Virus record (IMG/VR): IMGVR_UViG_3300035703_000405 | Coordinates: 1-23,963 of that record | Length of the DNA stretch: 23,963 nt | Strand: one strand, 5' to 3' | From: a virus | Part shown: positions 319-22,619 of the stretch, in pieces | Position numbering within the stretch: position 1 is the first letter of the stretch | How the letters are laid out: each line of letters starts with the position of its first letter | Notes under the pieces: generated by a model | Told to the model about the DNA's origin: nothing | Seen by the model: only the letters and a program-made list of their open reading frames with translations | The model's database searches: none | Made by a program: the position numbers and the translations under genes

Positions 319-2091
319 ATGACAAATCCATTTTCAAAAAAGATAGCTAATAAATTAGCAACAAAAGCTGAAAAAAAATTAAAAATAGATGATGCTTTTA
401 AAAAGGTTGATGAAGAAATTGGCGACACAAATGCATGTTTTAATTCTAAAGTAAATGAAGCTCAAAATTTACAAGAACTACTGGACGCAGTTTCTGGTCT
501 AGATTTAGAAGTTTTGTTAACATTTTTTATTTTAAGACTTCAACAAGCCTCTTCTAAAGAGGATTTCGGAAGTTTTCTTGCTTATGGAAATCAGGCATTA
601 AGTTATTTTTCATGTGTATTTAATGAAAATTTAACAAAATATGATGGCTCTGTCACAAAAGCTTTAGATATAGATTTAGGATTAGTAATTGAAGAAATTG
701 CTCTTGATTTTTTTAAACAATTCAGAAAAACTGTAGAAAATACATTAGAGACATTAATATTAAAACTGATAAAAAATATATTTAATGATTTACTAAACTT
801 TGTCGATTGTGATAAAATTAACAAATGTGTTGTGCCTTGTGATCCAAAGTCTGAAGACAATCCTTATAAAAATATATTTGTAGGAATACTTTATAAAACA
901 GGAATTGAACCTACATTAAAGCTTGGCAAATTAATTGCTGATGAAGGCTTAGATGTTGAAGTATCAAAAGTAGAAGAAATATATAAAGATATAGAAAAGA
1001 AATTTTTACCTGAAGAATTAGATTGTTTATATAAAGGTATTAAATCTTCTAGTGCTATAGATTTAATTAAAAATATTATTAAAACTATTTTAGAAAAAGA
1101 TCCTGAACCTGAATTAACTCAGGTTATCGTTGATAATATTCCTGATTTATTTGAAGCAGTACCTATCGCAGCGAATGATCCTTCACAACCTAATCCTGTA
1201 AATCCTTGTGGCTTAATTTCTTTAGAAAATATAGCAAAATTAAGACTAATGCGTAGAGGATATACAGAAGAAGAAGCTCAACAGATTTTAGATCAAAAAG
1301 CAGAAGAAACTAAAAATAAATTACAAATTGTAGCAGAATTGCTTACAAATGCTTCTTTACTAAAAGAAGCAGTTGATGTAGGAAATTCTGATATAACAAA
1401 GACAGTAGTTAATAACGCTATAGATTTATTATTTAATTCATTAAATACAAATAAGACTTCAATTGTTCCTTTGAGTACAATTCTTTCTGTAACAGGAGAT
1501 GCATGTTTAGCATATTATTATATTACAAACATCTCGCTGCCTGATGAGATAAAAGAAAAATTTGAGTACGAAACTAAGCCAATGTCTTTGCCGGGTGATG
1601 CATTGGCTATTTTGTTTAATCCTAATTTTTATCAAAGATATAATCTACCAATTCAAAAAATTGACAACTATTCAGTTCAATATAGCAGCAATTCTGTGAT
1701 TAATTTTATATTAAATAATGAATCAAAATTTACATGTACAAAATATAAATTAATTGATTCCGTTCAACCATCAAATTCAATAGATTTAAAATATAATATA
1801 GAAAATATATATATTGAAAATAATGAAAGAAATGATGTATCCGATATTATTCAGTCACAAAATAATCCATTATTGTATCAATATATTTCTGTTGATACTG
1901 AGTCAATGTTTGTAAATTCATATCTAAATGTATCTAAATATATACAACAAGATTTAGATAAATTATTTTATTTTCAAGAATATTATATAGATAATATAAA
2001 TTCTGAATTAAATAAGAAAAAATATATAAATACGGATTATTTATCAATTGAAAATGATAAACAAGAACTGAAGGATAAATTAAATGTCTAA
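319..2091 (+). CDS. Uncharacterised helical phage virion protein, probably baseplate or tail
   Basis: This 590-residue protein is not assigned to a named family. It is mostly predicted helix, with no signal peptide or convincing membrane segment. A cysteine cluster lies at about residues 164-174 (C-x5-C-x3-C), with further cysteines at about 236 (Glu-Leu-Asp-Cys-Leu) and near 300 (Asn-Pro-Cys-Gly). The C-terminal 150 residues become rich in Asn, Tyr and Ser. From memory, large environmental phages carry structural proteins with similar Glu-Leu-Cys-Leu segments after a helical region, just upstream of gp25/gp6; this is a weak recollection, not a search result. The start at 319 lies three bases after the preceding stop and has no good Shine-Dalgarno, which suits translational coupling. 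The end overlaps the next gene by 8 bases. Confidence 0.8.
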   Translation: MTNPFSKKIANKLATKAEKKLKIDDAFKKVDEEIGDTNACFNSKVNEAQNLQELLDAVSGLDLEVLLTFFILRLQQASSKEDFGSFLAYGNQALSYFSCVFNENLTKYDGSVTKALDIDLGLVIEEIALDFFKQFRKTVENTLETLILKLIKNIFNDLLNFVDCDKINKCVVPCDPKSEDNPYKNIFVGILYKTGIEPTLKLGKLIADEGLDVEVSKVEEIYKDIEKKFLPEELDCLYKGIKSSSAIDLIKNIIKTILEKDPEPELTQVIVDNIPDLFEAVPIAANDPSQPNPVNPCGLISLENIAKLRLMRRGYTEEEAQQILDQKAEETKNKLQIVAELLTNASLLKEAVDVGNSDITKTVVNNAIDLLFNSLNTNKTSIVPLSTILSVTGDACLAYYYITNISLPDEIKEKFEYETKPMSLPGDALAILFNPNFYQRYNLPIQKIDNYSVQYSSNSVINFILNNESKFTCTKYKLIDSVQPSNSIDLKYNIENIYIENNERNDVSDIIQSQNNPLLYQYISVDTESMFVNSYLNVSKYIQQDLDKLFYFQEYYIDNINSELNKKKYINTDYLSIENDKQELKDKLNV

Positions 2092-3121
2092 TTTATACTT
2101 AAATTACAAAAACGAAACAACAAAGCAGTTAATAATATTATACACAAAAAGTTGCATATTAACTGAATATATACACTTATTTCCAATTATTTCAAGAATA
2201 AAATTTCCATCAAATTTATCAGATATATTAACAAGTAAATATTATGATGCAGTATCTGAATACATAGATAAACAACAATTTACAGATTTATGTGTTCAAT
2301 CCATTTCTCAGATAAATGCTTTAATTGAATTTGATGGATTAGATTATGTAAATATTGTTGATGATTTCCCTAATACTTTTGAAAAGTATAATTCTGTAGA
2401 ATCTAATAATACAACAACAACAGATGAATTTATATCTAGCGGATTATCTTCTAGATTTTTAGAAAACAAAATGTATGTCGAAAGATACTTCAGATTAAAA
2501 AATGTAGATCAGCAAAGTATTTATTTTAATCGCGAGGCTTTTCAAGGAGCTGTTAATATTAATTTATTTAAATCACATTTATTAGGAAATTTATCGTTAG
2601 GCTATACAGATCAAGAGTTTTTTAGTTTAGTTCCTGAAATAAATATAGGTGTAAGATTAGTGTCAAACCCTGTGATAAATTCAATAGACAAACAACTTTT
2701 GTACAATGCTATTGCGTCACAGGATATTTCTAAAAAAGAAAAATTAAATGCCATAAGACTACATTCAGAAAATGAACAATTTTTTTATTTTCCAATAAAA
2801 CTTGCAGATGTTGAATATAATTTATTTAATTTTTGCGACAAAACAATGCAATCAATTATTGATTTTATAGATTCCGAAAGTTTTGACGCAATTATTTCTT
2901 TAATAACCAAGACTTTGTGGTCCAACAATAATTTTAAAAAATTATTTGAATATCATATTCCAATACAAATTTTGCAGCCTGTATTGTTAGAGAACATGAA
3001 AGATAAATATAAATTATTAAAGAGTGTATATGATAAAAATTTACAATATAGTAATTTAAATACAATAATAATTAATTTGATAGATAAGATACAAAACCTT
3101 GAGGACCCTACTAGACTATGA
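2084..3121 (+). CDS. Uncharacterised phage structural protein upstream of gp25
   Basis: This 345-residue protein is of unknown function. It shows mixed helix and strand, a Thr/Asn run at about residues 107-113, and a segment 'VERYFRL' near 132-138 followed by a region with 'GVRLVSNP'. There is no signal peptide or membrane helix. An AAGGA at 2071-2075, 8 bases before the ATG, supports the start. The gene overlaps its upstream neighbour by 8 bases and the gp25-like gene by 4 (ATGA), so it is tightly coupled to the baseplate wedge genes. By position it could be a wedge component, for instance in the place of gp53, or the C-terminal half of a larger protein split from the upstream gene; neither is shown by a motif. 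Confidence 0.8.
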   Translation: MSNLYLNYKNETTKQLIILYTKSCILTEYIHLFPIISRIKFPSNLSDILTSKYYDAVSEYIDKQQFTDLCVQSISQINALIEFDGLDYVNIVDDFPNTFEKYNSVESNNTTTTDEFISSGLSSRFLENKMYVERYFRLKNVDQQSIYFNREAFQGAVNINLFKSHLLGNLSLGYTDQEFFSLVPEINIGVRLVSNPVINSIDKQLLYNAIASQDISKKEKLNAIRLHSENEQFFYFPIKLADVEYNLFNFCDKTMQSIIDFIDSESFDAIISLITKTLWSNNNFKKLFEYHIPIQILQPVLLENMKDKYKLLKSVYDKNLQYSNLNTIIINLIDKIQNLEDPTRL

Positions 3122-3495
3122 ATCCAGGTATAAACATAAAACTTCCTCTAACATATGACAGCTCAGATGGTCCATATAAAACAAATAAGAGTGTAGTAGA
3201 CGCAATAAATCAAAATTTATATGTTTTGTTTAAAACTGCTCCTGGCGAAAGAATAATGAATACAGATTATGGTATAGGTATAAACAAGTATTTATTTGAA
3301 AATTTTACTCCATCTTTAGCAGACAGGATGAAACAAGATATACGTTCTCAAATTAAAAAATATATAAAAGGATTACAGGTTCAAGAGCTAGAAGTAGTTC
3401 AATTACCAAATGAAAATAATGTAATCAGAATTGCTTTATTTTATTCAATTCCTTCTTTAAATATAGATAGTTTGTTTACAATTGTAGCAAGCTAA
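3118..3495 (+). CDS. 25: Baseplate wedge protein, gp25-like
   Basis: This 125-residue protein matches the gp25/gpW-type baseplate wedge family in length (T4 gp25 is 132 residues) and layout. It has an N-terminal segment with Val-Val-Asp-Ala-Ile-Asn-Gln-Asn helix, the hallmark turn Pro-Gly-Glu-Arg-Ile-Met-Asn-Thr-Asp-Tyr-Gly-Ile-Gly at 42-54, then Lys-Tyr-Leu-Phe-Glu at 57-61, and a C-terminal helix-strand-strand ending. In T4-like phages gp25 sits in the inner wedge with gp6 and gp53 and helps trigger sheath contraction. The Glu-Pro-Arg triad usual after the main helix is not recognisable here: the equivalent place, near residues 86-91, reads Leu-Gln-Val-Gln-Glu-Leu. The ATG overlaps the previous stop as ATGA, with GAGGA at 3101-3105. 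The gp6-like gene follows after 13 bases, which supports the call. Confidence 0.9.
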   Translation: MNPGINIKLPLTYDSSDGPYKTNKSVVDAINQNLYVLFKTAPGERIMNTDYGIGINKYLFENFTPSLADRMKQDIRSQIKKYIKGLQVQELEVVQLPNENNVIRIALFYSIPSLNIDSLFTIVAS

Positions 3496-3500
3496 TAGGA
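3496..3500 (+). promoter_or_regulatory. Ribosome binding site of the gp6-like gene
   Basis: TAGGA, 8 bases before the ATG at 3509, follows the gp25 TAA directly, so the sequence reads TAATAGGA. It gives both a tandem in-frame stop (TAA TAG) and the Shine-Dalgarno. The same TAATAGGAG arrangement recurs at 21115-21123. Confidence 0.7.
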
Positions 3501-3508
3501 AAAAAAAC

Positions 3509-5272
3509 ATGTCAAGTAAATTAATAAATTATACAAATAAAGATTATAATTCTATAAGAAATTTTCTAATTGAACACATTAGACAGTTTTATCCAACAAC
3601 TTATAAAGACTTTACAGATTCAAGTTTTGGAGCAATGACTGTTGATTTAATGTCTTTAATTGGCGATACTCTTTCTTTTTATATAGACTATCAAGCAAAT
3701 GAATCAATACTTGATACAGCTAGAGATTTAAATAATATAATTAAACTTGCAAAAGAAAAAGGATGGAAAGATACCGGCAAACAATCTGCTTATGGCGAGA
3801 TTGATTTGTATATTTTAGTTCCAGCAGATCCTGTTGGCGAACCTGATACATCTTATATGCCAATACTGCAAAAAGATAGCTCATTCTCTGTTAGAGATAC
3901 AAATGCATCATTTTTGTTATTAGAAGATGTTGATTTTTCTAAAGATGACGTCAAAAAGGTTGTAGCAAAAGTTGATTCAAATGGAATGCCATCTTTCTTT
4001 GCTTTAAAAGCAAAAGGAAAAGTTATATCTGGCGCAAAATATGTTCAAACAGAAGCTGTAACAACATTTCAGAATTATTTAAAAGTAAGAATATCAAATC
4101 AGTTATTGTCAGAAATAATATCAGTAACAGATTCAAATGGTAATGAATATCATCAAGTTGATTATTTAACTCAAAATGTTGTGTATAAATATGTAAAAAA
4201 TACTGGTTCTAATTCTGATTTGGTTCCATATGTTTTATCTAAAGTATATGCTCCAAGAAGATTTGTTATAGAAAATAATGATGGATTTTACTACCTTGTA
4301 TTTGGAAATGGTTCGGTAGATTCTGTAACTGATCCAAGAAATTTAGTGTTAGATTTTGACAGCAGAAGATATGTTCAGGAAAAGAAAATAGATCCTAAAA
4401 ACATAATACAAAGTGATAAATTCGGAATATCTCCTGTTAATACAACATTAAGTATAGTATATAGAGCGAACAATGTCAAAAACATAGGTGCATCCTCAAG
4501 AGGATTAAGTAGAGTTTTAAATTCTAATTTTATCTTTCCACAAGAAGGAATAAGTTTATCAAAAAGAAATTCAGTAATTTCTTCATTAGAAATAGAAAAT
4601 GAAAATCCAATCGCTTCCATTGAACAAACAATGACAAGCGAAGAAATAAAGAACAGAGCATATGGCGTTCATAGCGCACAAGATAGAGCGGTAACAAAAG
4701 AAGATTATATAACAATGTGTTATGCTATGGACCCAAAGTTTGGAGTAATAAAGAGAGCAGATATTCAGCAAGACACAAATTCATTTAAGAGAAATCTAAA
4801 CCTTTATGTATGCGGAATAGATTCTGAAGAGAAATTGTGTGCATGTCCAGACATTTTGAAACAAAATCTTAAAACATGGTTAATGTCTAAAAAGATGATA
4901 AATGATACAATAGACATTATAAATGCAAAAATTATTAATTTATATATTGAATTTACAGTAGACACATCGTTTCAGGACAAAAACTTTGTTTTTCAAAAAT
5001 GTATAAATAAATTATCAGAGTTATATGCAGAAAAATTTGATATAGGACAATCTTTTTCTGTGAGCCAAATATACAAGACTTTAAATTTAATACCAGAAGT
5101 AATTGATTGTAAAAAAGTTAAAGTCAAAATTAGAGATGGATATGGATATGCATCAACTAATTTTGATGTAAATCAGAATTTCAGTCCAGATGGTGATTAT
5201 ATATATTGTCCAAAAGATTCTATATTTGAAATCAAATATATTGAAAACGATATAGTGGGAACAGTAATATGA
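3509..5272 (+). CDS. 6: Baseplate wedge protein, gp6-like
   Basis: This 587-residue protein is a gp6-type baseplate wedge subunit (T4 gp6 is 660 residues). It shows the family's N-terminal signature: Ile-Asn-Tyr-Thr-Asn-Lys-Asp-Tyr at 6-13, Tyr-Lys-Asp-Phe-Thr-Asp-Ser-Ser-Phe-Gly at 32-41, and Gly-Asp-Thr-Leu-Ser-Phe-Tyr-Ile-Asp-Tyr-Gln at 52-62. The second landmark, at about 383-402, is Ala-Tyr-Gly...Ala-Gln-Asp-Arg-Ala-Val-Thr-Lys-Glu-Asp-Tyr, the most conserved stretch of the gp6/baseplate-J-like group, followed by Phe-Gly-Val-Ile-Lys-Arg-Ala. In T4, gp6 dimers join the wedges into the inner baseplate ring and change shape during contraction. A TAGGA 8 bases upstream supports the start. 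The end overlaps the next gene by ATGA. Lying next to a gp25-like gene, this is the most secure call in the window. Confidence 0.95.
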   Translation: MSSKLINYTNKDYNSIRNFLIEHIRQFYPTTYKDFTDSSFGAMTVDLMSLIGDTLSFYIDYQANESILDTARDLNNIIKLAKEKGWKDTGKQSAYGEIDLYILVPADPVGEPDTSYMPILQKDSSFSVRDTNASFLLLEDVDFSKDDVKKVVAKVDSNGMPSFFALKAKGKVISGAKYVQTEAVTTFQNYLKVRISNQLLSEIISVTDSNGNEYHQVDYLTQNVVYKYVKNTGSNSDLVPYVLSKVYAPRRFVIENNDGFYYLVFGNGSVDSVTDPRNLVLDFDSRRYVQEKKIDPKNIIQSDKFGISPVNTTLSIVYRANNVKNIGASSRGLSRVLNSNFIFPQEGISLSKRNSVISSLEIENENPIASIEQTMTSEEIKNRAYGVHSAQDRAVTKEDYITMCYAMDPKFGVIKRADIQQDTNSFKRNLNLYVCGIDSEEKLCACPDILKQNLKTWLMSKKMINDTIDIINAKIINLYIEFTVDTSFQDKNFVFQKCINKLSELYAEKFDIGQSFSVSQIYKTLNLIPEVIDCKKVKVKIRDGYGYASTNFDVNQNFSPDGDYIYCPKDSIFEIKYIENDIVGTVI

Positions 5273-6681
5273 TAAAAAGATACTTTGCTACAAAAGATGC
5301 TCAAATAACAAATGCCAGAGATACATCTTTCCTTAGATCTGGAACTCTGTCCAACATGGGACTTTCAGATTCAGGAGAGATATTTTCTTTATATAATGTA
5401 ACTGGCTTCGAAGAAGATGTTTCAAAAAATGATAAATCTAGATTGCTATTTCAGTTTGATATTGCCTCCATGCAAGCGGATACAGACATTCCTGCATCTA
5501 GAACAAAATATTATTTAAGATTATTTAACGTCAAACATGATGAATCATTGCCTAGAAATTTTACATTAAAAGTTCATCCTTTAACTACTCAATGGACAGA
5601 AGGATATGGATTAGATATTGACAATTATTTAGATTTAGGCGCTGTTAACTGGATATCTGCATCGGAAGGAAGTGCATGGAGCACAGCGGGTGGAGATTTT
5701 GACGCAAATACATCAGTGTCTCAATTGTTTACTCTTGGGTATGAAGATTTAGAGATAGACATGACATCTATAGTTGCATTATGGCAGTCATCTAGTATTC
5801 CAAATTATGGAGTAATTGTTAAGCTTCAAAACTCAGAAGAACAAGATGATCAAAACTTCTACAAGAAAATGTTCTCAATGAGAGGTACTGAATATTGGTT
5901 CAGTAGACCTTGTATAGAAGCAAGATGGAATGATTTTATTTTTGATGACAGAAATAATTCATATTCTAGTTCAATTCTTGCATCAAATGATGATAATACT
6001 AATACAATTTATTTTTATAATAAAATAAGAGGTCAACTGTCTGACATCCCATCAATAGGTCAGGGCAATGTTTATGTATCATTTTATTCCTCATCTACTG
6101 GCACAGGAAGCTTTGTGACTTCGGCAACTGGTACATGGGTATCAACTGGTATATATAAAGCACAATTTTCAGCGTATTATGAAGGTACACTGTATGATAG
6201 ATGGCACAACAATAGTCCAATACAGCATCCTACACAACCTTTTTATACAAATTCAATTTATATGAAAAACTTTTTAGATGATTATTATACATCTAATGAA
6301 GAATTTATACTTTCTATGCCTAATTTAAAACCATTTTATCATACAAATGATAAAGTTAGATTAGATTTGTTTACAAGAAAAAGAAATTGGCAACCAACTG
6401 TATATACATCAGTTGTTGCAGAGCCTGAAAAAGAATATATTAAAAAAGCTTATTATCAAATAAAAAGAACAGTTGATGATAAGATTGTTATACCATTTGC
6501 AACAGGCACAATAGAGTACACAAGATTGTCATATGATAAAGATGGTAATTATTTTAATTTAAATATGAATTTATTTGAACCAGATTTTCAATATGAAATA
6601 AGTTATATCTTTGATATAGAAGGCAAAAAAACTTTGCAAAAAGATAAATTTAAATTTAGAATTAACAAAGAAATAACATAA
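5269..6681 (+). CDS. DNRLRE-like baseplate/tail surface protein
   Basis: This 470-residue protein has an N-terminal domain (about 4-220) resembling DNRLRE domains, beta-rich modules of cell-wall and surface proteins. Visible landmarks are Lys-Asp-Ala-Gln-Ile-Thr-Asn (9-15), Arg-Leu-Leu-Phe-Gln-Phe-Asp (58-64), Trp-Thr-Glu-Gly-Tyr-Gly-Leu-Asp (109-116), Gly-Ala-Val-Asn-Trp (124-128), Asp-Met-Thr-Ser-Ile-Val (164-169) and Pro-Asn-Tyr-Gly-Val (178-182). The C-terminal half is beta-rich with many Ser/Thr/Tyr residues and may hold Ig-like domains. No signal peptide or membrane segment is seen, which fits a virion part rather than a secreted protein. It starts inside the gp6-like stop (ATGA), after GGGA at 5257-5260, and lies where T4 has gp7 and gp8, so a wedge-periphery or host-binding role is plausible. 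The domain call is by eye. Confidence 0.7.
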   Translation: MIKRYFATKDAQITNARDTSFLRSGTLSNMGLSDSGEIFSLYNVTGFEEDVSKNDKSRLLFQFDIASMQADTDIPASRTKYYLRLFNVKHDESLPRNFTLKVHPLTTQWTEGYGLDIDNYLDLGAVNWISASEGSAWSTAGGDFDANTSVSQLFTLGYEDLEIDMTSIVALWQSSSIPNYGVIVKLQNSEEQDDQNFYKKMFSMRGTEYWFSRPCIEARWNDFIFDDRNNSYSSSILASNDDNTNTIYFYNKIRGQLSDIPSIGQGNVYVSFYSSSTGTGSFVTSATGTWVSTGIYKAQFSAYYEGTLYDRWHNNSPIQHPTQPFYTNSIYMKNFLDDYYTSNEEFILSMPNLKPFYHTNDKVRLDLFTRKRNWQPTVYTSVVAEPEKEYIKKAYYQIKRTVDDKIVIPFATGTIEYTRLSYDKDGNYFNLNMNLFEPDFQYEISYIFDIEGKKTLQKDKFKFRINKEIT

Positions 6682-6693
6682 GGAAAATAATAT

Positions 6694-9600
6694 ATGAGCA
6701 TAAAAAATTTATTTACAAACGCTGGAACAGTAGTATCAAATAAGTCTTTATCTGATGTAACATCTTCTCTTGGACTAGAGAGTTATGGAGTTATATCCTC
6801 TTCTTATTCCAGATATAATCTTTTGCTTCCTGATTTAAATTTTCAAGATCCTGCTGAATTTGCTAAATATGGTTCAGCAGAAAAATATTATGAAAATTCT
6901 ATCAAAAAAATTGCTCAAACATATCCTTATGACGGCTCAAAAAAGCAAAAATTAGAATGGAGAAATAACTGCTCATATTTAGATTTATATCTATTTGAAA
7001 ATGAATATCCAAGACATACAGGTTCAATAACAATTGGCAAAAACTTTGGAACATCATCTGTAAAAAATAATGGTTATTACGAAACTCCTACAAGAACAGA
7101 GTATATAAAAGTTAATCCAGGACTTTCAACTGGCTCTATATACGATGAAGATAAAGATAGAAGAACTTCATTTTCATTTAATAGCGAAAAAGGATTTTGT
7201 GTTGAATTTTATATGAATCCTAATACATGGAGTGCAGATTTAGCTACTGCAACATTCCAGGTTGTATTAAATGCTGGTGCATTATCTTCTGAAACAACAT
7301 CTAGTGTTGCATTTCCTGATGGTGGATTTCAATTTTTAATCGCTGTAAATACCACAGATTTATTAGTAGGAATGGAAGATGGCAATACTGTATCATATAT
7401 AACATATCCTAATGCATTTAGTTATAATAAATGGAATAGATACAGTGTAAATTTCCATTCTGGCGGCACTGTAGATATATGGAAAGACGGTTCAAAGGTA
7501 AAATCAGATACATTTGCCTCTAATCATTGGCCGTATATTCCTGTTCACATGAAGTTATCAGGAACAATTGGAGCATTTTGCGGCTTTCCTTATGGAACAT
7601 GGTATTCAAATGGAGCAAGAATTGGATGGAACAAATTCTCTGGTTCACTGGATGATTTTAGATTTTGGAGAGAAGCAAGAACTGATAAAGAGATAGCATC
7701 TAATTGGTTTTGCAGTGTTGACGGTGGATATGATTCTGATGAACAGTTAACTCCCAAAATGGGATGGTATTATAAGTTCAACGAAAGCACAGTCGGAACT
7801 GCATCTATTGATGCTAACATTTTAGATTATTCAGGCAGAAGAAATCATGCAACATGGATTGGATATCAATCTGGTTCAAGACTTGATTATTCTCCAATGA
7901 TAAATGAGTTTAGAGATCCAATATTACATTTGTCATCTTCAAGGGTATATTCATTTCTTTCTGAAAAGATGTTATCAGGAAAAGATTATGATATACAAAA
8001 TAATGGAGCTATAATAAATAACCTGCCTTCTTTCTTGAAAGATGAAGACTCTGATAATCATTATGCAAATTTTACACAGATAATTGCATCAATGTTTGAT
8101 TCATTTTGGCTTGAAATTAAATCTTTAACAAGTTTGAAAGATTCATCTTATTTTTCTTCAGGTTCTTTGCATTCTGATATACTATTAAAACTTATTAATT
8201 CAAGCGGAATAGAGCTTAATAGTATATTTGATGGATATTCTTTGAAAGAGTTAATAGAAGGAAAAAATGATTTATTTAGTTTTGAAACAGAGATAGAAAA
8301 AATAAAACAAGTTGTATATAAAAATATATACAATAATCTTTCTTACATATTCAAGTCAAAAGGCACTGAAAAATCAATAAAATCAGTTTTCAGATCTTTT
8401 GGTGTAGATGATGATGTTATTAAAATAAAATCATATGTAAAAGAAGGTAAGTTAGAAATCGATGGTTCAAAAACTATTGACACAGTAAGAAGAAAAAATG
8501 TTTTAGATTTATTTGGCAAAACAGATGAACAGAACATGAATGGCACAGTATTTTTAAAATATTGTCCAGATATATCTGGTTCTGCAAATTATTTAACAAA
8601 TTCTATAGATTCAGAAACTAACAAAAAATATATTAAAGATAAAACATTTGAAGCAAATATATTATTTCCATACAAATATCCATTTTCGGATCAAAACCAT
8701 GTCTTTTTGAATCAAAATGATTTGTCAGCATCACTGTTTGGCTTTGTACAGGTTAATGATTCTATATCTTTAACATCTGAAGATTCTACATGGCACGCAG
8801 ACCCTTATAGACTAAACGTATTTGCTGTTCAAAGAGATAGATACTCAAAGGATGCAAAATTTGTATTTATATTAACTGGTTCAAATTATAATAGAATATA
8901 TACTGAAACTCAATGGTATGAAAATGTATATGATAATACCAAGTGGACATTTGGATTAAAATTTTATGATTCAAATCAATATGCACATTCAGGTTTATTT
9001 GCTCATACCACTTCTTTTGACATATTGGCTTTTCAAGAAGAATCAGGTATTATACTTAATTCATTTTCTTCTTCTTTTGATTTGTATTACACTGGATCAT
9101 CTTATGAATACAATACATTTCTTAAAGGCAAAACAAAACCATATATAGGAGCATTAAGAACTAATTTTACAGGAACTTTGCTATATCCAACACAAGCAAA
9201 GTTTTATAATCTTAAAGTTTGGAATACAAAACTATCTGATGAAAATATAAAAAGACATTCTTATGATATGCATAATTTTGGAACATTTAGTTCTTCATGG
9301 AACGCATATAACATTGAAGATGTGCTTCGAGACTCAAACAATCTTCCAAAAGAATATTTTCCAAAAGCAGAAACATTAGTTATAAATTGGGACTTTGAAA
9401 AAGAATATGTTCCAAATCAAAGCGGATATTTCACTGTTTCATCTTTTAGAAGTGGTTCCGTTTATCAACCATCAAATATATTTTATGCAAGTAATAGATA
9501 TAACTATGCAGGCATAGGTTCTAATTTTAATTATAGTGCTACTGTAATCGAAAAAGCACATGCAATTGAGCAGAAGAATAAGATGCCAACTGATTATCAT

Positions 9601-10098
9601 TCAAGTGATACAATATCATTAGAAGATGATGAACAATTTCATTTTGGAAGAAAAGTTAAACCAATGCAATTCTTCTATACAGTTGAAAACAGTATATATT
9701 CAGTAATATCTGAAGATATGCTCAATATGTTTGCAACAATAGATGAGTTTAATAATTTAATAGGTATGCCTCATGAAAAATTTAGAACTGATTACAAAAA
9801 CTTAAGAATATTAAGAAACTTATTTTATTCTAAAGTTAAAAATTCTAAAATTGATGTTGAAAAATATTTTTCTTATTATAAATGGTTAGACGGAGCTATT
9901 GAGCAAATAATATCTAAGTTGTTTCCATTTTCTTCAAACTCTGATGCAAATGTAAGAAATGTTATAGAATCACATGTTCTTGAAAGATCTAAGCATTTAT
10001 GGAGTCCAGAGATAATAAAAACATCTCCAAAGAAAAAGCCATTAGAATTTTCAGTAAAATCCTTCCTTAATAGTTCAAAATTAAACAAAATTGTATAA
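6694..10098 (+). CDS. Large virion protein with two LamG-like lectin folds
   Basis: This 1134-residue protein has a mosaic layout. The first LamG/concanavalin-like jelly-roll spans about 155-390 and ends in the typical closing strands (Ser-Gly-Ser-Leu-Asp-Asp-Phe-Arg-Phe-Trp, 316-325, then Tyr-Tyr-Lys-Phe-Asn). A helical middle, about 430-590, contains Tyr-Asn-Asn-Leu-Ser-Tyr-Ile-Phe-Lys-Ser-Lys-Gly-Thr-Glu-Lys (546-560), like the 'KGT' helix of tail-protein-I-type baseplate proteins. A second LamG-like region, about 650-865, closes with Phe-Tyr-Asn-Leu-Lys-Val-Trp-Asn-Thr-Lys-Leu-Ser (837-848). The C-terminus has a helical block with Tyr-Tyr-Lys-Trp-Leu-Asp (1061-1066) and Glu-Ser-His-Val-Leu-Glu-Arg (1092-1098), which I recognise from large environmental phages. 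The lectin folds suggest binding of surface sugars; the ends probably anchor it in the baseplate. AAGGA (6680-6684) lies 9 bases before the ATG. Confidence 0.8.
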   Translation: MSIKNLFTNAGTVVSNKSLSDVTSSLGLESYGVISSSYSRYNLLLPDLNFQDPAEFAKYGSAEKYYENSIKKIAQTYPYDGSKKQKLEWRNNCSYLDLYLFENEYPRHTGSITIGKNFGTSSVKNNGYYETPTRTEYIKVNPGLSTGSIYDEDKDRRTSFSFNSEKGFCVEFYMNPNTWSADLATATFQVVLNAGALSSETTSSVAFPDGGFQFLIAVNTTDLLVGMEDGNTVSYITYPNAFSYNKWNRYSVNFHSGGTVDIWKDGSKVKSDTFASNHWPYIPVHMKLSGTIGAFCGFPYGTWYSNGARIGWNKFSGSLDDFRFWREARTDKEIASNWFCSVDGGYDSDEQLTPKMGWYYKFNESTVGTASIDANILDYSGRRNHATWIGYQSGSRLDYSPMINEFRDPILHLSSSRVYSFLSEKMLSGKDYDIQNNGAIINNLPSFLKDEDSDNHYANFTQIIASMFDSFWLEIKSLTSLKDSSYFSSGSLHSDILLKLINSSGIELNSIFDGYSLKELIEGKNDLFSFETEIEKIKQVVYKNIYNNLSYIFKSKGTEKSIKSVFRSFGVDDDVIKIKSYVKEGKLEIDGSKTIDTVRRKNVLDLFGKTDEQNMNGTVFLKYCPDISGSANYLTNSIDSETNKKYIKDKTFEANILFPYKYPFSDQNHVFLNQNDLSASLFGFVQVNDSISLTSEDSTWHADPYRLNVFAVQRDRYSKDAKFVFILTGSNYNRIYTETQWYENVYDNTKWTFGLKFYDSNQYAHSGLFAHTTSFDILAFQEESGIILNSFSSSFDLYYTGSSYEYNTFLKGKTKPYIGALRTNFTGTLLYPTQAKFYNLKVWNTKLSDENIKRHSYDMHNFGTFSSSWNAYNIEDVLRDSNNLPKEYFPKAETLVINWDFEKEYVPNQSGYFTVSSFRSGSVYQPSNIFYASNRYNYAGIGSNFNYSATVIEKAHAIEQKNKMPTDYHSSDTISLEDDEQFHFGRKVKPMQFFYTVENSIYSVISEDMLNMFATIDEFNNLIGMPHEKFRTDYKNLRILRNLFYSKVKNSKIDVEKYFSYYKWLDGAIEQIISKLFPFSSNSDANVRNVIESHVLERSKHLWSPEIIKTSPKKKPLEFSVKSFLNSSKLNKIV

Positions 10099-10118: not shown

Positions 10119-13100
10119 ATGCCATATCCAGAATTAACACAAACTTTATATCTATTGACAGGAGAGGTGGTTACAGAACCTACTTCTACTATCAAAAATA
10201 TATTAACAATAGAAAATTATACACATACAGGAACTGTATTTCTAGTTCCTCAGACAAATTTAAATAACAAAAAAAGAACAAATTATTTAAACAGTTATGA
10301 GGTATTTAATTCAACTGGAAGAAGAGATAACAATTTATCTGTTAGAGATATATCGCTGTCTTCTTCGTACAATGAAGTTGTCATAAGTGGTGAAAACAAA
10401 GATGTAACTGCTTATGCTAGAATTAAAAACAAAAACATATTTGCAGTTAAATTTAGTGCTCCTGGTGGCAAAAGAACAGATTCTGTTAAAAACACTGACT
10501 TAGAATCTGGAGAATATTCATCAAATAATAGTATAAATTTTAGAAACTATGAAGCAAGATATACACAGAGTATAGATTTACAGCAGCATACTGATTTAAA
10601 TTATACATCAACATATACAACACATAAAACAAATAGGAATCATAGATATCTTGTAAATTCAAGTGATGTAATATATTCAAAATCTGATAATGGCTATGTT
10701 AGTCATCAACTTCCATATCATAAAGATCAGATTTCATGGGCATATAAATTATATAATAATGATGCTGAAAGAAGGAATCATTATGTTGTAAATAATATTC
10801 AAACAGGCTCAGAGTTTTATATCACGCTATCATTTGACGGCACAGATTTATCTCAGTCATTTGGTTCTGATTACAAGTTAATATATGGCAATTCATCTTG
10901 GACTCAAGTTAGAGCATCGCAAAACTGGAAAATCAGAAAGTTAAGACAAAATTCTTATTTTATAAAAAATAGTACAGAGACTACGCAAGAAGGTCGTGGC
11001 ACAAGACTTGATCCATTATTGCTCATATCTTCAGGAAGTCTTGATACATCGTCAGAAGGTAAAATCATATTCAAAGAGCCTGTTGTTGATTTCTGTCCAA
11101 CTTATACTCAAATAAATTACAATGATCAATATATAATTGATAATACATTGTATAATTCTAAATTTTATAATGATGAGTTGAATAATAAAAACAATATAAA
11201 TCAAGATCAACAAGAAGATGTATTGGATTATTTTAGTGATTCAGATAAATCAATCAAAAAATACAAGAAACAGATATTTCCTCAAGCAAAAATATCTGGA
11301 TTAAACAGAACAAGATCTAGAGAGAACTTCGTATATCGTCCATGGAGAGATGAATATTTTTCTGTATCAGCAGATGGATATACAGCTTCACTTCATTATG
11401 ATAATGTTAGAGGCGTAACAGATCCAAATTATAAAGGATATACTATACCATCTCTTTTTCAAAGTGATGGTTCGCCAGAAGATGGCAAAATATCTGGCTC
11501 AATTTGGCCGCTAGATTCTTATAGATATAATTATTATGAACCTCCTCCTCCACTTGGAAATGCTTACTCCAGTGCTTCTAACAGAGTTCTGGGAGAATTA
11601 TTGTTATTTTATAATTATATTTATGCAGGTGGAATTAACCAAGTATCATCGCCTGAATATCCTTGTGTCGCATATTCTTTAAATTCTTTTCAAACATATA
11701 ATTCAGAATTACCATGGACAGCTTTTATTAGAGCAAACTCAAAACCGTTTGATGATAACAATAAAAAATTTGAAGAAGACATAATAAAATTATATAAAAA
11801 TTATTCAACACTATCTGAATATAATTTATCTCAACAAATTACAAATGATAATTTTGAAAAAATATCAGAGATATCAAAAAATAATTCTTTTAATTTTTAT
11901 AATACAGGTTCAAATATAAATTTTAATTCTGATAATATCACGATAAAAGACAAACTTTCTTTTAGCATTAACTCTGTTTTAAAACTTAGACCTTATCAAA
12001 ATTTTTATCCAGTTTTTCAGTCGATGAATTGTGCATCCATATTATCATCTTCTCTTTCTAAAATTAGTTCTTTTAATTTTAAAGAAAATGGTCAATTAAA
12101 TGGTGTAAATTGGATGTGTCATCCTTTTTTTGCTCCAGGTATTTTGTATAATTCCATAAAAGCAGGTGCTCCTATGCCATTTGCATACTCAGCGACACCA
12201 GGTGAATTAAATACTGCAAGTTTTGAGTCAATATTTGACGTACAATCGTATCTAAAAAATAAATCTATAAATGAATTTTTAATAACAGAAAGTTTTAATT
12301 CTAATTTTTATAAAAATTGTATAAATAACTTTTTAAGTGAAATAAAATATACATTTTGCAAAAATAATTCTTTAGAATATTTTACAAGTAAAAATGAAGA
12401 TGAGTTTCCTGTATTTCAAAATGGAAAAGAATATGTTTTAGATATTTTTGTTGAACAAGGAAGGCTGGACTATATTAATAATTTAATAATAGGTGGCATA
12501 AATTATACAGATAAATTAAGTTTTGGTAACACAAAAAATGTTCCTTTGTGGACATATTTGTACGGAAGCTCATCTGCTATAAATCCAATAAAAGCTGCTA
12601 TGACTAGAGTATCTTTTACGCCTTCATCTACTAGAAAATATACCATAGATGAAATATTTGCAAATTTAGTGATAACAACACCTGCATCTCATACGTCTTC
12701 TTATGAGCCCTTTGGGTTTGATATCAATGAATATCATAAAATCACTGAATCATTTAATATATTAGAAAAAGAATTAAATGAAGATGGAATATCTAAGTGG
12801 AAAATAAAATCAAAATGGGAATTTCCATATTTAATCATGACAGAATCATTTTTATCATTTAAAACTGCTCATGGTATATCTTATAGTCCTCCTACTATGG
12901 CACCTTCTTTAGTGTCCAGAAAAAATGTTGACGGATATTATGTTGGAGGTTTATGGCATGATTTCTGTGAAATCCCCAATTCAGAACAAGGTCTTTTTGT
13001 AAAAATTTCAGATTTAGATTATCAATCTACTGACCAATCTATACAAATTAAGTCAGCATCTCTTGCTGATATGGTGGGATTTAAAAAAGAGACAAAGAGA

Positions 13101-13577
13101 ATTGGAGAATTAAATGAACAAAAAGAAATATCTGAATTAATATGTATTGTTCCTGTAAATAAAAATAATAATTCATTTATAAAGATAGATCAGACATTTG
13201 ATTTATATCAAGAAAATCAAAAATATTTAAAAAAATATATATTACCTCCAAAACTTGATTATCTTTTAGACGGTATTGATCCAGTTATCATGTTTTGCAA
13301 AGAAGTAACAGATATTTGGTCAAAAAGAGATTTGTCTTATATATGGCAAAATTTGTTGCCTCAAAATGGATTAAATCATAAACACAAATCTGAAAAATAT
13401 GAAGTAGCAGATCAAAAGGCAATAGAATTATTAAAAAATAAAGAAGTTTATTTTATGATATTTAAATGTAAATTAAGATCTGTTACAAACCCACATGGAA
13501 CATATGGATATAATTGGCCTTATGATGAATGTAGTTTGATAGAGCTTGCACAAATTGAAGCAATTACTGAGGAATAA
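10119..13577 (+). CDS. Giant uncharacterised virion protein with 'FSAPGG' and 'FAPGI' motifs
   Basis: This 1152-residue protein has no named family that I can assign. I recall its landmarks from a long structural protein of big environmental phages: Lys-Phe-Ser-Ala-Pro-Gly-Gly (111-117) followed by Asn-Phe-Arg-Asn (140-143), His-Lys-Thr-Asn-Arg-Asn-His (about 168-174), Ser-Ile-Trp-Pro-Leu-Asp (near 460), Leu-Arg-Pro-Tyr-Gln-Asn-Phe-Tyr-Pro-Val (near 622), and Phe-Ala-Pro-Gly-Ile-Leu-Tyr-Asn-Ser-Ile-Lys-Ala-Gly (near 671). A Pro-Pro-Pro-Pro run lies near 474. The N-terminus lacks a signal peptide. The composition is rich in Tyr, Asn and Ser with alternating strands. The start has only weak Shine-Dalgarno support, 20 bases after the previous stop. 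Sitting between the lectin-fold protein and further tail genes, it is most likely a tail or baseplate periphery component; no enzyme motif is visible. Confidence 0.75.
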   Translation: MPYPELTQTLYLLTGEVVTEPTSTIKNILTIENYTHTGTVFLVPQTNLNNKKRTNYLNSYEVFNSTGRRDNNLSVRDISLSSSYNEVVISGENKDVTAYARIKNKNIFAVKFSAPGGKRTDSVKNTDLESGEYSSNNSINFRNYEARYTQSIDLQQHTDLNYTSTYTTHKTNRNHRYLVNSSDVIYSKSDNGYVSHQLPYHKDQISWAYKLYNNDAERRNHYVVNNIQTGSEFYITLSFDGTDLSQSFGSDYKLIYGNSSWTQVRASQNWKIRKLRQNSYFIKNSTETTQEGRGTRLDPLLLISSGSLDTSSEGKIIFKEPVVDFCPTYTQINYNDQYIIDNTLYNSKFYNDELNNKNNINQDQQEDVLDYFSDSDKSIKKYKKQIFPQAKISGLNRTRSRENFVYRPWRDEYFSVSADGYTASLHYDNVRGVTDPNYKGYTIPSLFQSDGSPEDGKISGSIWPLDSYRYNYYEPPPPLGNAYSSASNRVLGELLLFYNYIYAGGINQVSSPEYPCVAYSLNSFQTYNSELPWTAFIRANSKPFDDNNKKFEEDIIKLYKNYSTLSEYNLSQQITNDNFEKISEISKNNSFNFYNTGSNINFNSDNITIKDKLSFSINSVLKLRPYQNFYPVFQSMNCASILSSSLSKISSFNFKENGQLNGVNWMCHPFFAPGILYNSIKAGAPMPFAYSATPGELNTASFESIFDVQSYLKNKSINEFLITESFNSNFYKNCINNFLSEIKYTFCKNNSLEYFTSKNEDEFPVFQNGKEYVLDIFVEQGRLDYINNLIIGGINYTDKLSFGNTKNVPLWTYLYGSSSAINPIKAAMTRVSFTPSSTRKYTIDEIFANLVITTPASHTSSYEPFGFDINEYHKITESFNILEKELNEDGISKWKIKSKWEFPYLIMTESFLSFKTAHGISYSPPTMAPSLVSRKNVDGYYVGGLWHDFCEIPNSEQGLFVKISDLDYQSTDQSIQIKSASLADMVGFKKETKRIGELNEQKEISELICIVPVNKNNNSFIKIDQTFDLYQENQKYLKKYILPPKLDYLLDGIDPVIMFCKEVTDIWSKRDLSYIWQNLLPQNGLNHKHKSEKYEVADQKAIELLKNKEVYFMIFKCKLRSVTNPHGTYGYNWPYDECSLIELAQIEAITEE
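13569..13573 (+). promoter_or_regulatory. Shine-Dalgarno inside the end of the upstream gene
   Basis: GAGGA overlaps the last codons of the 1152-residue protein gene and lies 6 bases before the ATG at 13580. It fixes that start and implies coupling across the 2-base gap. Confidence 0.65.
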
Positions 13578-13579
13578 AA

Positions 13580-14401
13580 ATGACAACTTTGTTTGATAAA
13601 AAACAGGATGTAATTGATTTTCAATTAACTCCTCTTGGAAGAAAAAGACTTCGCGAAGGTACATTTGAACCAACTTATTATGCCTTTGGAGATGCAGATG
13701 TAACTTATGATACAAGATTTTTCGGTATATCAGGAAGTCAAAATCAAACAGTACAAGATTTAGATACAAAAGACAGGCCAAGAGTATTTACATATCCAAC
13801 TTTAGATACAGATAAAAACATATTTAAAGATAAATTCTATAAACCTTCAGTATTGGGAAACTCTCAGGTTGGAAATCAATTATATCCAGCTTTTGAGTTG
13901 AAATTATACAACGGTCATATATCTGGTAGCACAAAATATATGACATCTACATTTTTAAACGAGAAAGTTCCTACTGTACATATAAATATGAAATGCAAGT
14001 ATAACAATGAAAAGAAAGTGTTTGAAGGTGAAAGTGAATATTTATTACTTGAATTAAATGAAATAAATGGATTGTTTGAAAGAGAGAATTTTGAATTTTC
14101 AATCTTAAAAAGAAAAAAACCAAGAATGGTAAATGGTCAGCTTGTGTATCCAGAGGTTCAATTATATTTTTCAGAATTAACACAATCTGAAACAATTGAA
14201 AATCCATTGGCAATAATATCAGAAAAACCTGATACAACATCAGTTGAATACTTCTTGCAAATCAATAATGATGAAAATATGTTTACAGATGTTAAGCTTG
14301 ATTTTTATTCTGGATTAGAAAATGTAGTAGATTTAAACAATCATAATCAAGCAAATATCTATTTAAGACCTGAAAATGATCCAGATTCGAGGGATTGCTA
14401 A
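13580..14401 (+). CDS. Phage virion protein with N-terminal LTxxGRxRL module (copy 1)
   Basis: This 273-residue protein begins with a compact motif: Val-Ile-Asp-Phe-Gln-Leu-Thr-Pro-Leu-Gly-Arg-Lys-Arg-Leu (11-24), Gly27, Tyr-Tyr-Ala-Phe-Gly-Asp-Ala-Asp-Val-Thr-Tyr-Asp (33-44). The same arrangement, with L16-T17, G20-R21, R23-L24 and G27 at identical residue numbers, opens the protein at 20221. The rest is beta-rich and ends with Asp/Asn-rich sequence. It has no signal peptide or membrane helix. I recall this N-terminal pattern from uncharacterised structural proteins of large environmental phages. It loosely resembles the start of the phage tail-collar family (Leu-Thr-x-x-Gly then Gly-Asp), so it may dock a fibre-like protein to the tail; that is inference. 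Its TAA overlaps the next ATG by one base. Confidence 0.75.
   Translation: MTTLFDKKQDVIDFQLTPLGRKRLREGTFEPTYYAFGDADVTYDTRFFGISGSQNQTVQDLDTKDRPRVFTYPTLDTDKNIFKDKFYKPSVLGNSQVGNQLYPAFELKLYNGHISGSTKYMTSTFLNEKVPTVHINMKCKYNNEKKVFEGESEYLLLELNEINGLFERENFEFSILKRKKPRMVNGQLVYPEVQLYFSELTQSETIENPLAIISEKPDTTSVEYFLQINNDENMFTDVKLDFYSGLENVVDLNNHNQANIYLRPENDPDSRDC
14389..14393 (+). promoter_or_regulatory. Ribosome binding site that fixes the start at 14401
   Basis: GAGGG lies 7 bases before the ATG at 14401. A longer frame could open at a TTG at 14395, but that codon would be only one base from this site, so the ATG, which overlaps the upstream TAA as TAATG, is the better start. Confidence 0.75.
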
Positions 14402-20220: not shown

Positions 20221-21117
20221 ATGGGAATACTTAGAAATGATGGCGATATTATTTTAGACATGGTTCTAACAGACGCCGGAAGACAGAGATTAGCAAAAGG
20301 TGATGGAAGTTTTAGGATAGTTAAGTTCGCGTTATCAGATTCAGAAATTGATTACAGAAATTACAATCTAAACGATCCACGAGGGTCAGCTTATTTTGAT
20401 ATCAATATACTATCAACACCTTGCTTCCAGGCTTTTACCAATAATACTGCTGCAATGAAATATAAACTTGTTTCATATGCACGAAACGACTTGCTATATC
20501 TACCTGTAATAAAACTCAGTACAACACTTGGTCCCGGCGGCGGAACATATAATTCAGCAGGATACTATATCGTTACAGCCAATGATGAAACCATCAAATC
20601 ACTTGGAATAGGAACAGGTATTGTAGATGGTCAAACCGCAGAGACAGCACAAAGATCTCCAATCACATTTGAACAAGGATTAGATACAACTGAATTATCT
20701 GCAAGAGTTCAAATACCAAACGATCTGAAAGAGACTCAATACTTTGTGAAGATAGATTCAAGACTTGGAGAGATTATTACTCCAAGAGGAACGGCTAAAC
20801 AAGCAGAGGTATCATTTATTGATGACGATAAATATGCTATGTATATTTTTTCAGTTGGTACACCTGGAGATTTCATTCGAGACATTACCAATGTCGATGG
20901 TAATTCTGCAATTGCAGGACCAAGAGGAACTATGTTCCAGTTCTCAATTAGAGCAAATATAAGCCTTGGAACATCTGATTATCTTTTTAACAAGATAGGT
21001 TCGTCGATTACAATTAGTGCAGTAAATTATAAGTATATTGATACATATGTTATGATTGAAGGCGGCACTACTGGATTTTCAATTGAATTACCAATAAGAT
21101 TCTTAAGAAAGGTATAA
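20221..21117 (+). CDS. Phage virion protein with N-terminal LTxxGRxRL module (copy 2), codon-biased
   Basis: This 298-residue protein opens with Asp-Ile-Ile-Leu-Asp-Met-Val-Leu-Thr-Asp-Ala-Gly-Arg-Gln-Arg-Leu (9-24), Gly27, then Phe-Ala-Leu-Ser-Asp-Ser-Glu-Ile-Asp-Tyr (36-45), the same module as the protein at 13580. The remainder is beta-rich with a Gly-Pro-Gly-Gly-Gly turn near 102-106 and no membrane segment. I recall this type as an uncharacterised structural protein of large environmental phages. Its DNA stands out: stretches such as 20521-20580 reach 29 G/C of 60, while typical neighbours fall below 30%, and C-ending codons are more frequent. This is the pattern expected of an abundant virion protein. 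It follows the hairpin and a good GGAG site, and a matching codon-biased gene follows 14 bases later. Confidence 0.8.
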   Translation: MGILRNDGDIILDMVLTDAGRQRLAKGDGSFRIVKFALSDSEIDYRNYNLNDPRGSAYFDINILSTPCFQAFTNNTAAMKYKLVSYARNDLLYLPVIKLSTTLGPGGGTYNSAGYYIVTANDETIKSLGIGTGIVDGQTAETAQRSPITFEQGLDTTELSARVQIPNDLKETQYFVKIDSRLGEIITPRGTAKQAEVSFIDDDKYAMYIFSVGTPGDFIRDITNVDGNSAIAGPRGTMFQFSIRANISLGTSDYLFNKIGSSITISAVNYKYIDTYVMIEGGTTGFSIELPIRFLRKV

Positions 21118-21118
21118 T

Positions 21119-21123
21119 AGGAG
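21119..21123 (+). promoter_or_regulatory. Strong Shine-Dalgarno after a tandem TAA-TAG stop
   Basis: AGGAG lies 8 bases before the ATG at 21132 and is the strongest site in the window. The preceding TAATAG (21115-21120) places two stops in frame. Strong initiation agrees with high production of the codon-biased gene it serves. Confidence 0.7.
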
Positions 21124-21131
21124 TTAGATAA

Positions 21132-22166
21132 ATGCCATCATCATACAAATACATTACTGACGATAAACAACAATTCGTTACTGAAAGACTATATGAAAGT
21201 GTACCAATAACAGGCACATATGTATCTGGAACATATTCTGAAAACAATATACTAAATTATTCACATGGTAGATTTCAATCAGTTTTTGATTATCCTTACC
21301 TAAGTTCATCTGCAAACCATTTATGTGATATTACCTTCGGGTATTCAAATGTCTCAACATTGTCGGCATCTTCAAATACTCAGAACAATGAAAAAATCTT
21401 AAACTATACACAATTCGCCCAGATATTTCAGGGATTCGATGTAACAGGTACAATTCAGAGATTTGATGAAGATGGAAATATTACTGATGGTGGTACTAAA
21501 TTGGATGAATGTATATTCATTTTCTTTAACAGAACATTCGTAAAGGATGGCATAAAGAAAGGTTCATTCAGTGCTACATTCCTCACCGGCAATAGCTGGG
21601 CAAATCCATTAGGAAGAGAAGAAATAAATGATCTACATGCGACATCATCTTATTTCATAAACTCTCCAGTTGGCGAATGGTCATATCTTAGTGGAACAAC
21701 AAAAGGAAAAGTAGGTCTGATATTCTATGGTGCAGGTCTCATTGTATTAACTGGAAGCTTATTTACTGCTTCATCAGGTGGACAAACACCTGTATTCTTT
21801 AGCAGTTCTGCAAGTCAAGCAAAGACATTTGTTCAAGCAATGACATCATCTTATCTCTCAGAATCTGCAAATGGATTAAGAAGAAGATGGGTTAATGTAC
21901 AGTTTGTAAATACAACTGAAATTAATTCACAGATAATATTTTTAGATGTTGGACCTAATGAATTCAATTATAGCTCAAATCCAACTTACTTATCTCAGTC
22001 AAAGATAAGAACAAAAGATGACGCAACAGACACTCCTGTGTGTTACTTCAATGAAGTCGGATTATATTCAGCAGATAATGAATTATTGGCAAACGGAAAA
22101 TTCTCTGAACCATTAAAGAAAACTGCCGGAAATGCGCTTACAGTTAGAGCAAGATTAGATTTTTAA
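21132..22166 (+). CDS. Fibre-like virion protein, paralog 1, codon-biased
   Basis: This 344-residue protein is rich in Ser, Thr, Asn, Gly and Tyr with predicted strands throughout. Landmarks are Ile-Lys-Lys-Gly-Ser-Phe-Ser-Ala-Thr (141-149), Gly-Lys-Val-Gly-Leu-Ile-Phe-Tyr-Gly-Ala-Gly-Leu (192-203), Asn-Glu-Phe-Asn-Tyr-Ser-Ser-Asn-Pro-Thr-Tyr (276-286), Leu-Tyr-Ser-Ala-Asp-Asn-Glu-Leu-Leu-Ala (311-320) and a terminal Leu-Thr-Val-Arg-Ala-Arg-Leu-Asp-Phe. All of these have counterparts, in the same order, in the protein at 22619. I recall the Glu-Phe-Asn-Tyr-Ser-x-Asn-Pro-Thr pattern from structural proteins of large environmental phages. Base composition is raised (27 G/C of 60 at 21541-21600), as in the preceding gene. 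It is probably an abundant tail, fibre or surface protein; function is not established. Confidence 0.8.
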   Translation: MPSSYKYITDDKQQFVTERLYESVPITGTYVSGTYSENNILNYSHGRFQSVFDYPYLSSSANHLCDITFGYSNVSTLSASSNTQNNEKILNYTQFAQIFQGFDVTGTIQRFDEDGNITDGGTKLDECIFIFFNRTFVKDGIKKGSFSATFLTGNSWANPLGREEINDLHATSSYFINSPVGEWSYLSGTTKGKVGLIFYGAGLIVLTGSLFTASSGGQTPVFFSSSASQAKTFVQAMTSSYLSESANGLRRRWVNVQFVNTTEINSQIIFLDVGPNEFNYSSNPTYLSQSKIRTKDDATDTPVCYFNEVGLYSADNELLANGKFSEPLKKTAGNALTVRARLDF

Positions 22167-22178
22167 TTTATTTTTCAT

Positions 22179-22184
22179 GAGGAA
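22179..22184 (+). promoter_or_regulatory. Ribosome binding site of the membrane coiled-coil gene
   Basis: GAGGAA lies 6 bases before the ATG at 22191, in a 24-base AT-rich gap, and supports independent initiation of that gene. Confidence 0.65.
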
Positions 22185-22190
22185 ATTTAT

Positions 22191-22619
22191 ATGAAAAAAG
22201 AAACTCCAAGGGAAAAGTTTATTAAGATTGGATCTTATATACTATTGACCGTTGTCCCTGCTATTTTTGCAGTTGTTATTGCTATCTTTACATTTGGTGG
22301 AGATGTAAGAGAGCAGGTTCATCTTGTAAAAGAAAATACTGATAACATATCTAAATTGTCATCTCTTGTTGATAAAATTAGCAGTTCTGTAATAATTCAT
22401 GATCAAAAAATAAATTATTTAGATGATTTAACCAAAAAACATCAAATAAAAATTGAAAATGTTGAAGCTTTAATTAAAAATATAGATTTAAATTTAATTA
22501 AAATAAATACAACACTTGAATTACAACAGATAACAGTTAACAGATTTTGGGAAAAAGATTGGAAAAATTTACAGAATCAGATAGATAAAATAGAGAATAG
22601 AGTAACGAGAGATAAATAA
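22191..22619 (+). CDS. Small protein with N-terminal membrane anchor and coiled coil; spanin-like layout
   Basis: This 142-residue protein has a basic N-terminus (two Lys at 2-3, then Arg and Lys), a single hydrophobic helix at about 13-36 and then a long polar helix (about 40-135) with Ile/Leu/Val spaced every three or four residues, typical of a coiled coil. The charge pattern predicts the N-terminus in the cytoplasm and the coil outside it. Size and topology resemble inner-membrane spanins (lambda Rz is 153 residues), which help disrupt the cell envelope at lysis. No partner lipoprotein, holin or endolysin is visible nearby, so other roles, such as a membrane-bound accessory or anti-superinfection protein, are equally open. 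It sits oddly between two paralogous fibre-like genes. It has its own GAGGAA site and ends in a TAATG overlap. Confidence 0.75.
   Translation: MKKETPREKFIKIGSYILLTVVPAIFAVVIAIFTFGGDVREQVHLVKENTDNISKLSSLVDKISSSVIIHDQKINYLDDLTKKHQIKIENVEALIKNIDLNLIKINTTLELQQITVNRFWEKDWKNLQNQIDKIENRVTRDK

Follow-up and report, generated by a model that had tools for sequence, protein, structure and literature searches.

A motif-bearing protein of uncultured contractile-tailed phages and its likely place in the baseplate wedge

Positions 10119-13577 of the IMG/VR virus record IMGVR_UViG_3300035703_000405, which was analysed over its whole length of 23,963 bases (the window; 27.8% G+C), encode a long protein that raises a simple question: what does it do in the phage? 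A sequence-only reading of this stretch had described a motif-rich virion protein from a family of many large phages, with no assigned role. The frame is intact from ATG to stop and encodes exactly 1152 residues; it lies on the plus strand, as do its motifs and the genes from gp25 to the one directly after it. We call the protein the arm, since we read it as an outer or peripheral arm of the wedge in a contractile baseplate, where the equivalent of T4 gp7 would bear it; in some relatives it is furnished with lectin-like modules. We assign this reading a probability of about 0.65. The analysis adds a probable placement in the wedge and the recurrence of a giant fusion.

The arm family and its motif sites

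The family was collected by two DNA-pattern scans of IMG/VR. A degenerate pattern of the FAPGI motif (FAPGI.YN[ST]IK) gave at least 119 loci, and the unrelated C-terminal motif YNWPYD..S[LF][VIM]E gave at least 120 stretches, at least 96 of them new loci. Together these are at least 215 fetched viral loci, a few of them on one contig, and all match a single family profile: profile r1, built from 23 of the scan-1 loci and the window protein, matched all 119 loci listed for the first scan and all 96 new loci listed for the second. The motifs mark a large conserved family. When the window arm alone was used as phmmer query, open reading frames (ORFs) were matched in 97 of the 119 listed loci at E<=1e-3, the best at 3.2e-39.

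Conservation of the motifs was assessed in alignment A1, which holds 72 of 77 candidate relatives (L044, L019, L026, L036 and L099 were excluded). Overall identity to the window arm is only 21-29% in this alignment. By agreement with the window residue, KFSAPGG (10449-10469, residues 111-117) ranked 18th of 1146 same-length segments, SIWPLD (11499-11516, residues 461-466) 16th of 1147, RPYQNFYPV (11988-12014, residues 624-632; PYxGFYPxxR in the family) 35th of 1144, and FAPGILYNSIKAG (12129-12167, residues 671-683), the FAPGI site, 2nd of 1140. These four motifs, which together span 573 residues, are those that the sequence-only reading had taken as signs of constraint, and they are indeed conserved. 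Two further motifs absent from that reading, YIWQNLLP (13338-13361) and the C-terminal GYNWPYD (13506-13526), ranked 21st of 1145 and 8th of 1146, respectively; the latter is the basis of the independent search motif.

Since A1 had been collected through the FAPGI motif, the invariance of FAPGI inside A1 is built in. In the second set, collected by the C-terminal motif, the exact FAPGI string was found in 0 of 59 spanning ORFs, the relaxed form [AS]PG..[YFW]N[STAGC].[KRN] in 46, and near variants, judged by eye, in 8 more, leaving 5 without the motif. FAPGI was therefore rejected as an invariant motif. The other motifs were scored on the 33 second-set ORFs that cover them: F[SAGN]APG was present in 24, S.WP[LM][DE] in only 16 and [YL].[GN]F[YF]P in 31, and the site of FAPGILYNSIKAG mostly reads [FY][AS]PG[IV][LMF][YF]N[TS]IKSG in the independent set. 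The motif sites are thus conserved, though with more latitude than A1 implies. The FAPGI and YNWPYD sites can serve as markers for finding these phages.

The window arm is an outlier of its family. In a FastTree tree of 95 rows no end branch is longer than that of the window, at 2.79 changes per column, and with 1152 residues the window arm is the shortest of the arms compared; five other complete arm ORFs that stand apart from the preceding gene have 1903-2239 residues, and the arms of 17 large contigs 1686-3595 (the 3595 being cut by the end of the fetched stretch). A search for related loci seeded with the window protein gave 14 pattern matches, of which 0 were confirmed, and a stricter FAPGI..KAGA pattern found no close kin of the window. 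Through the window gp6, two loci were found at 41-42% identity.

Tblastn against 50,697 phage records gave no match for the window arm, for the 2096-residue protein of relative L105 or for the arm of relative L247, and one gp7-position query (see below) was also without a match. The window arm found nothing in PHROGs (E<=1) or among PDB sequences, nor did profile A1 among the latter. The sole Pfam row at E<=1 was PF21158, at 14.5 bits and under its cut-off of 24.2, and the LamG/ConA-like domain PF13385 was not found in the window arm by the Pfam scan. For three arm relatives, PHROGs returned a single weak match without a known function (E 0.043), and the Pfam matches were confined to LamG/pentaxin modules. 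Among the open-licence papers listed, judged by title and the start of the abstract, none dealt with the arm family, and a motif query gave no paper; the passages searched in PMC5628999 hold nothing on it. As far as searched, the carriers of the family are metagenome-derived viral contigs. Two relatives lie on short contigs (8.0 and 3.8 kb) of bacterial metagenome-assembled genomes, a Maricaulis and a Legionellales one; these are probably viral carry-over and possibly a hint to the host.

Gene order and recurrent fusion with the gp7-position protein

Gene order was surveyed in 17 contigs of 98-204 kb among the scan-1 loci listed, in the stretch from gp25 onward. The window begins this order with a gp25-like baseplate wedge protein (3118-3495; PF04965 E 1.3e-12, above cut-off; phrog_261 E 6.5e-20) and a gp6-like one (3509-5272; phrog_10646 E 4.6e-17, phrog_219 E 4.6e-15; matched in 54 phage records by tblastn), followed by a conserved neighbour of 470 residues (5269-6681), a protein of 1134 residues (6694-10098) and the arm. 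The same order, including a relative of the 5269-6681 protein in the same place, was found in all 17 large contigs. A relative of the next gene (13580-14401, with an LTPLGRKRL... N-terminus) directly follows the arm in 16 of them, the stretch of the 17th having ended before that position. Thus, the company of gp25 and gp6 that the sequence-only reading named was borne out in every large contig, but its "many large phages" found no counterpart among the 50,697 phage records. The gp25 family (PF04965) is present in 17/17 and the tail sheath PF17482, above cut-off, in 15/17, the window being a 24-kb fragment outside this count; by these sequence families the large-contig relatives are therefore contractile-tailed phages. 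The open frames with the sheath domain have 935-1122 residues in these 15, longer than T4 gp18 with 659 by its coordinates.

The protein encoded by 6694-10098 is, by position, the equivalent of T4 gp7 and P2 gpI. We named it gp7-position protein rather than gp7 family, because a rank search in T4 and P2 placed neither gp7 nor gpI. Its profile A2 (45 of 50 candidate segments, with L078 excluded twice, and L066, L063 and L075) also matched a large ORF a short way behind gp6 in each of three phages, namely Microcystis phage Mel-JY01, Flavobacterium phage immuto and the uncultured phage LR756508, with an hhalign E of 1.7e-24 against these three. The protein carries a LamG/pentraxin-like lectin domain, placed at 7018-7908 (residues 109-405) in the predicted model. 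PF13385 scored 28.2 bits there against a cut-off of 27.6 (residues 162-335), and the modelled domain aligned to PAPP-A and pentraxins with VIA-align Z up to 19.2; the Foldseek and VIA-align rows listed for this model were filled by the lectin domain.

In 16 of the 17 large contigs, the gp7-position protein and the arm share an open frame whose length from stop to stop is 2,859-5,829 residues; in the 17th (L237), the break falls inside the gp7-position part. Where the junction was visible, 83 loci were fused and 12, including the window, were split (95 rows, 92 different sequences). For this count 17 short loci had been swapped for larger re-fetched stretches, and an ORF had to cover profile positions 700-950, which removed L099 among others; in L020 and L225, both counted as split, the break lies away from the gp7/arm joint. 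At least 7 changes between the two states were needed on the FastTree tree, 5 of them forced by starred branches; the tree was a fast one, and its branches are long. Split rows cluster on it, as 0 of 500 shuffles needed as few changes (7 observed, mean 11.5 in the shuffles), and hence the 12 rows do not each stand for an independent event. A protein repeatedly joined to its neighbour in a single chain very probably acts next to it. The fusion therefore points the arm to the baseplate wedge, and the "no assigned role" of the sequence-only reading can be improved upon.

An error of assembly or a frameshift is an unlikely source of the split in the window, where the two genes are in different frames with a 20-nt gap and the linker segment of the relatives with QGPFT...VGG had no counterpart in any of the six frames. 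Here and in ten relatives (L016, L042, L048, L060, L098, L099, L105, L107, L118 and L171), -4 to 40 nt lie between the stop and the next ATG, and for these ten as well error is unlikely; this judgement does not extend to L020, L066, L078, L237 and L225. In L237 and L078, the long gene is broken within the gp7-position part, apparently at the same junction; the next ATG follows after 126 nt and without a change of frame, and the junction DNA is identical as far as compared. L066, L020 and L225 are broken at other sites. These breaks may be genuine gene splits, introns or errors. The longest frame, 5,829 residues with gp7-position and arm regions (loci L236 and L250 of contig G004, 133607-151094), was counted by coordinates over two fetched pieces. 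It ends with the usual C-terminus of the family and is very large for a phage structural gene.

A proposed outer arm of the wedge and the alternatives

How such a protein might work can be proposed by analogy. In the wedge core, the gp7-position part would join two copies of gp6. The arm part, a monomer present six times per tail, would reach outward and make lateral contacts; the monomeric state, the six copies and the outward position are suggested by comparison with T4 gp7 (PMC3004832). Exposed modules, such as the LamG, pentraxin and FG-GAP insertions of relatives, may touch cell-surface glycans or hold fibres, and the movement on adsorption would be passed through gp7 and gp6 to gp25 and the sheath. 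The arm's exact job could be that of a scaffold, a fibre anchor or a glycan contact, and the arm is presumably a virion protein. Modules were found in the arms of the 17 large relatives (LamG in 5/17, pentaxin in 2/17 and FG-GAP in 1/17), as expected of an exposed surface.

Mapping of the motifs on a predicted structure, as the sequence-only reading had proposed, succeeded for part of the protein. The AlphaFold2 model of the arm, made with 73 sequences, has a predicted TM-score (pTM) of 0.68 and a mean predicted local distance difference test score (pLDDT) of 61.1, with 450 of 1152 residues reaching 70. Parts of the C-terminal half model well, the confident stretches lying mostly inside residues 610-1150, with gaps, but residues 1-270 do not model. 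The FAPGI and PYxGFYP motifs fall in modelled parts and KFSAPGG outside them. Foldseek against BFVD gave seven proteins at E<=1e-3 (1.3e-48 to 2.3e-13), none with a function. Six of them (A0A1B1IUQ9, A0A516M7I0, A0A516LBS1, A0A1B1IWQ4, A0A1B1IV21 and A0A0F7LAZ6) resemble the arm with query TM-scores of 0.42-0.58, and A0A516MAV8 does so with 0.28; just one of the seven carries a source name, "uncultured marine virus".

Several results weigh against the arm as part of a wedge. Sequence hints only weakly that the gp7-position protein is homologous to T4 gp7 or P2 gpI. The KSKGTEKS region (8299-8442, residues 536-583) stands in register with the HKGT stretch of gpI, with hhalign E of 0.0055 (three-phage profile), 0.017 (A4) and 0.093 (A2) against 0.48 for the reversed control. 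The HH probabilities of the same alignments are just 6.6, 2.6 and 0.6%, and hhalign against the single gpI and gp7 sequences gave E of 0.18 and 0.47. Of 46 members, just 3 matched Tail_P2_I (PF09684) at E<=1, the best at 0.087, and at this threshold neither the window protein nor the relatives in the three named phages did so. When short profiles of the KGT region were run against six-frame ORFs of the whole T4 and P2 genomes, gp7 and gpI were never among the top six, in 6/6 settings. The examined stretches of Mel-JY01, immuto and LR756508 hold no arm homologue; the arm thus does not always accompany the gp7-position protein. In L118 and L171 the two genes share a frame with just one stop codon between them, and among the ten split relatives there are several whose junctions are nearly copies of one another. 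The arm itself bears no convincing similarity to the T4 baseplate proteins compared with it. The arm model found no significant solved fold in the PDB with Foldseek (best E 1.0 of 49 matches), and its best VIA-align Z of 5.5 is not above the tool's level for models without a clear match. We know of no proteomics or imaging of any member of the arm family.

Receptor binding might instead be the arm's main task: it would then be an adhesin, in the form of a glycan-binding plate or fibre, that is fused to the wedge just for attachment. The lectin-like and FG-GAP insertions in relatives' arms, the lectin domain of the partner protein and the strongly varying arm length would all suit such a function. 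Receptor-binding tips, however, are typically fast-swapping, and the arm core is conserved over very divergent contigs. The window arm, moreover, is without a recognisable binding module in PHROGs and Pfam, and more candidate fibre genes, with putative roles, lie downstream at 20221-23848. We regard a mainly adhesive arm as unlikely. The ease with which split and fused forms interchange, together with the short gene joins at split loci, could also mean that the fused form is a polyprotein cut into gp7-like and arm proteins; the same interchange is equally expected of flexibly linked neighbours, and we hold processing of this kind to be quite improbable. The least probable of the explanations weighed here is that the arm is a remote relative of T4 gp8, gp9, gp10 or gp11, diverged past recognition. 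It would occupy the same genomic place after gp7 as these proteins do in the T4 order gp6-gp7-gp8-gp9-gp10-gp11, but hhalign of A1 with the four gave E of 0.035-0.64 across just 1-46 columns, and no significant fold match was obtained.

The outer arm of a baseplate wedge thus remains our preferred reading. With it, one of the largest genes of these phages acquires a role that can be tested, and a family previously without an assigned role would belong to the infection machinery of uncultured phages. A bolder form of it is tentative and to our mind rather doubtful: a lineage known only from environmental DNA may have built its wedge around a single giant polypeptide of up to about 5,800 residues, in which gp7-equivalent, arm and swappable lectin modules replace the separate peripheral proteins of T4. 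If so, one protein per wedge would do both structural anchoring and glycan contact.

Two observations concern genes downstream of the arm. The proteins of 13580-14401 and 20221-21117 have a common N-terminal stretch (LTPLGRKRL...EGTF and LTDAGRQRL...GDGSF, respectively; 45 columns, 31% identity, BLASTP E 4e-4 in one comparison), which is perhaps a common attachment domain. The gene at 22191-22619, directly before the last complete gene, encodes a protein of 142 residues with a hydrophobic N-terminal stretch and weak family matches, which by eye looks like a membrane-anchored coiled coil.

Comparison with known wedge systems

Among the closest known systems are the T4 wedge module (gp6)2-gp7 and, in Vibrio phage XM1, gp16/gp17 (PMC3004832, PMC10457771), the likeness consisting of gp25 and gp6 being present and of the contractile sheath in relatives. 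As in T4, a large protein encoded by a single gene comes after gp6. Sequence homology of the gp7-position protein to T4 gp7 or P2 gpI is not established, and one extra gene stands between gp6 and the gp7-position protein here, unlike in T4 and XM1. The size of this wedge part varies widely, since XM1 gp17 has 242 residues at the place where T4 gp7 has 1032 (PMC10457771). Unlike in both, the gp7-position protein and the arm comprise 2286 residues in two genes in the window and up to 5,829 in the one-gene frame of relatives.

The gp7-like part of AlgoCIS is described as lateral, variable and fibre-binding, and as a hotspot of re-engineering; in Alg12 and Alg11, as here, wedge parts are united in one protein, and the wedge protein Alg11 bears carbohydrate-binding modules (PMC8894135). 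Unlike in AlgoCIS, gp6 is separate here, and the fusion joins the gp7-position protein to a further family that our searches met nowhere else. Gp119 of Bacillus phage Vp4 (baseplate wedge 3, 831 residues) is likewise a wedge protein with carbohydrate-binding modules, by which its relatives differ, and it decorates host cells, cell binding having been demonstrated for Gp119 (PMC11406892); it is likened to the arm system by this description and not by sequence. Beside these systems, the arm and the gp7-position protein would add another instance in which fusion and fission shaped wedge proteins.

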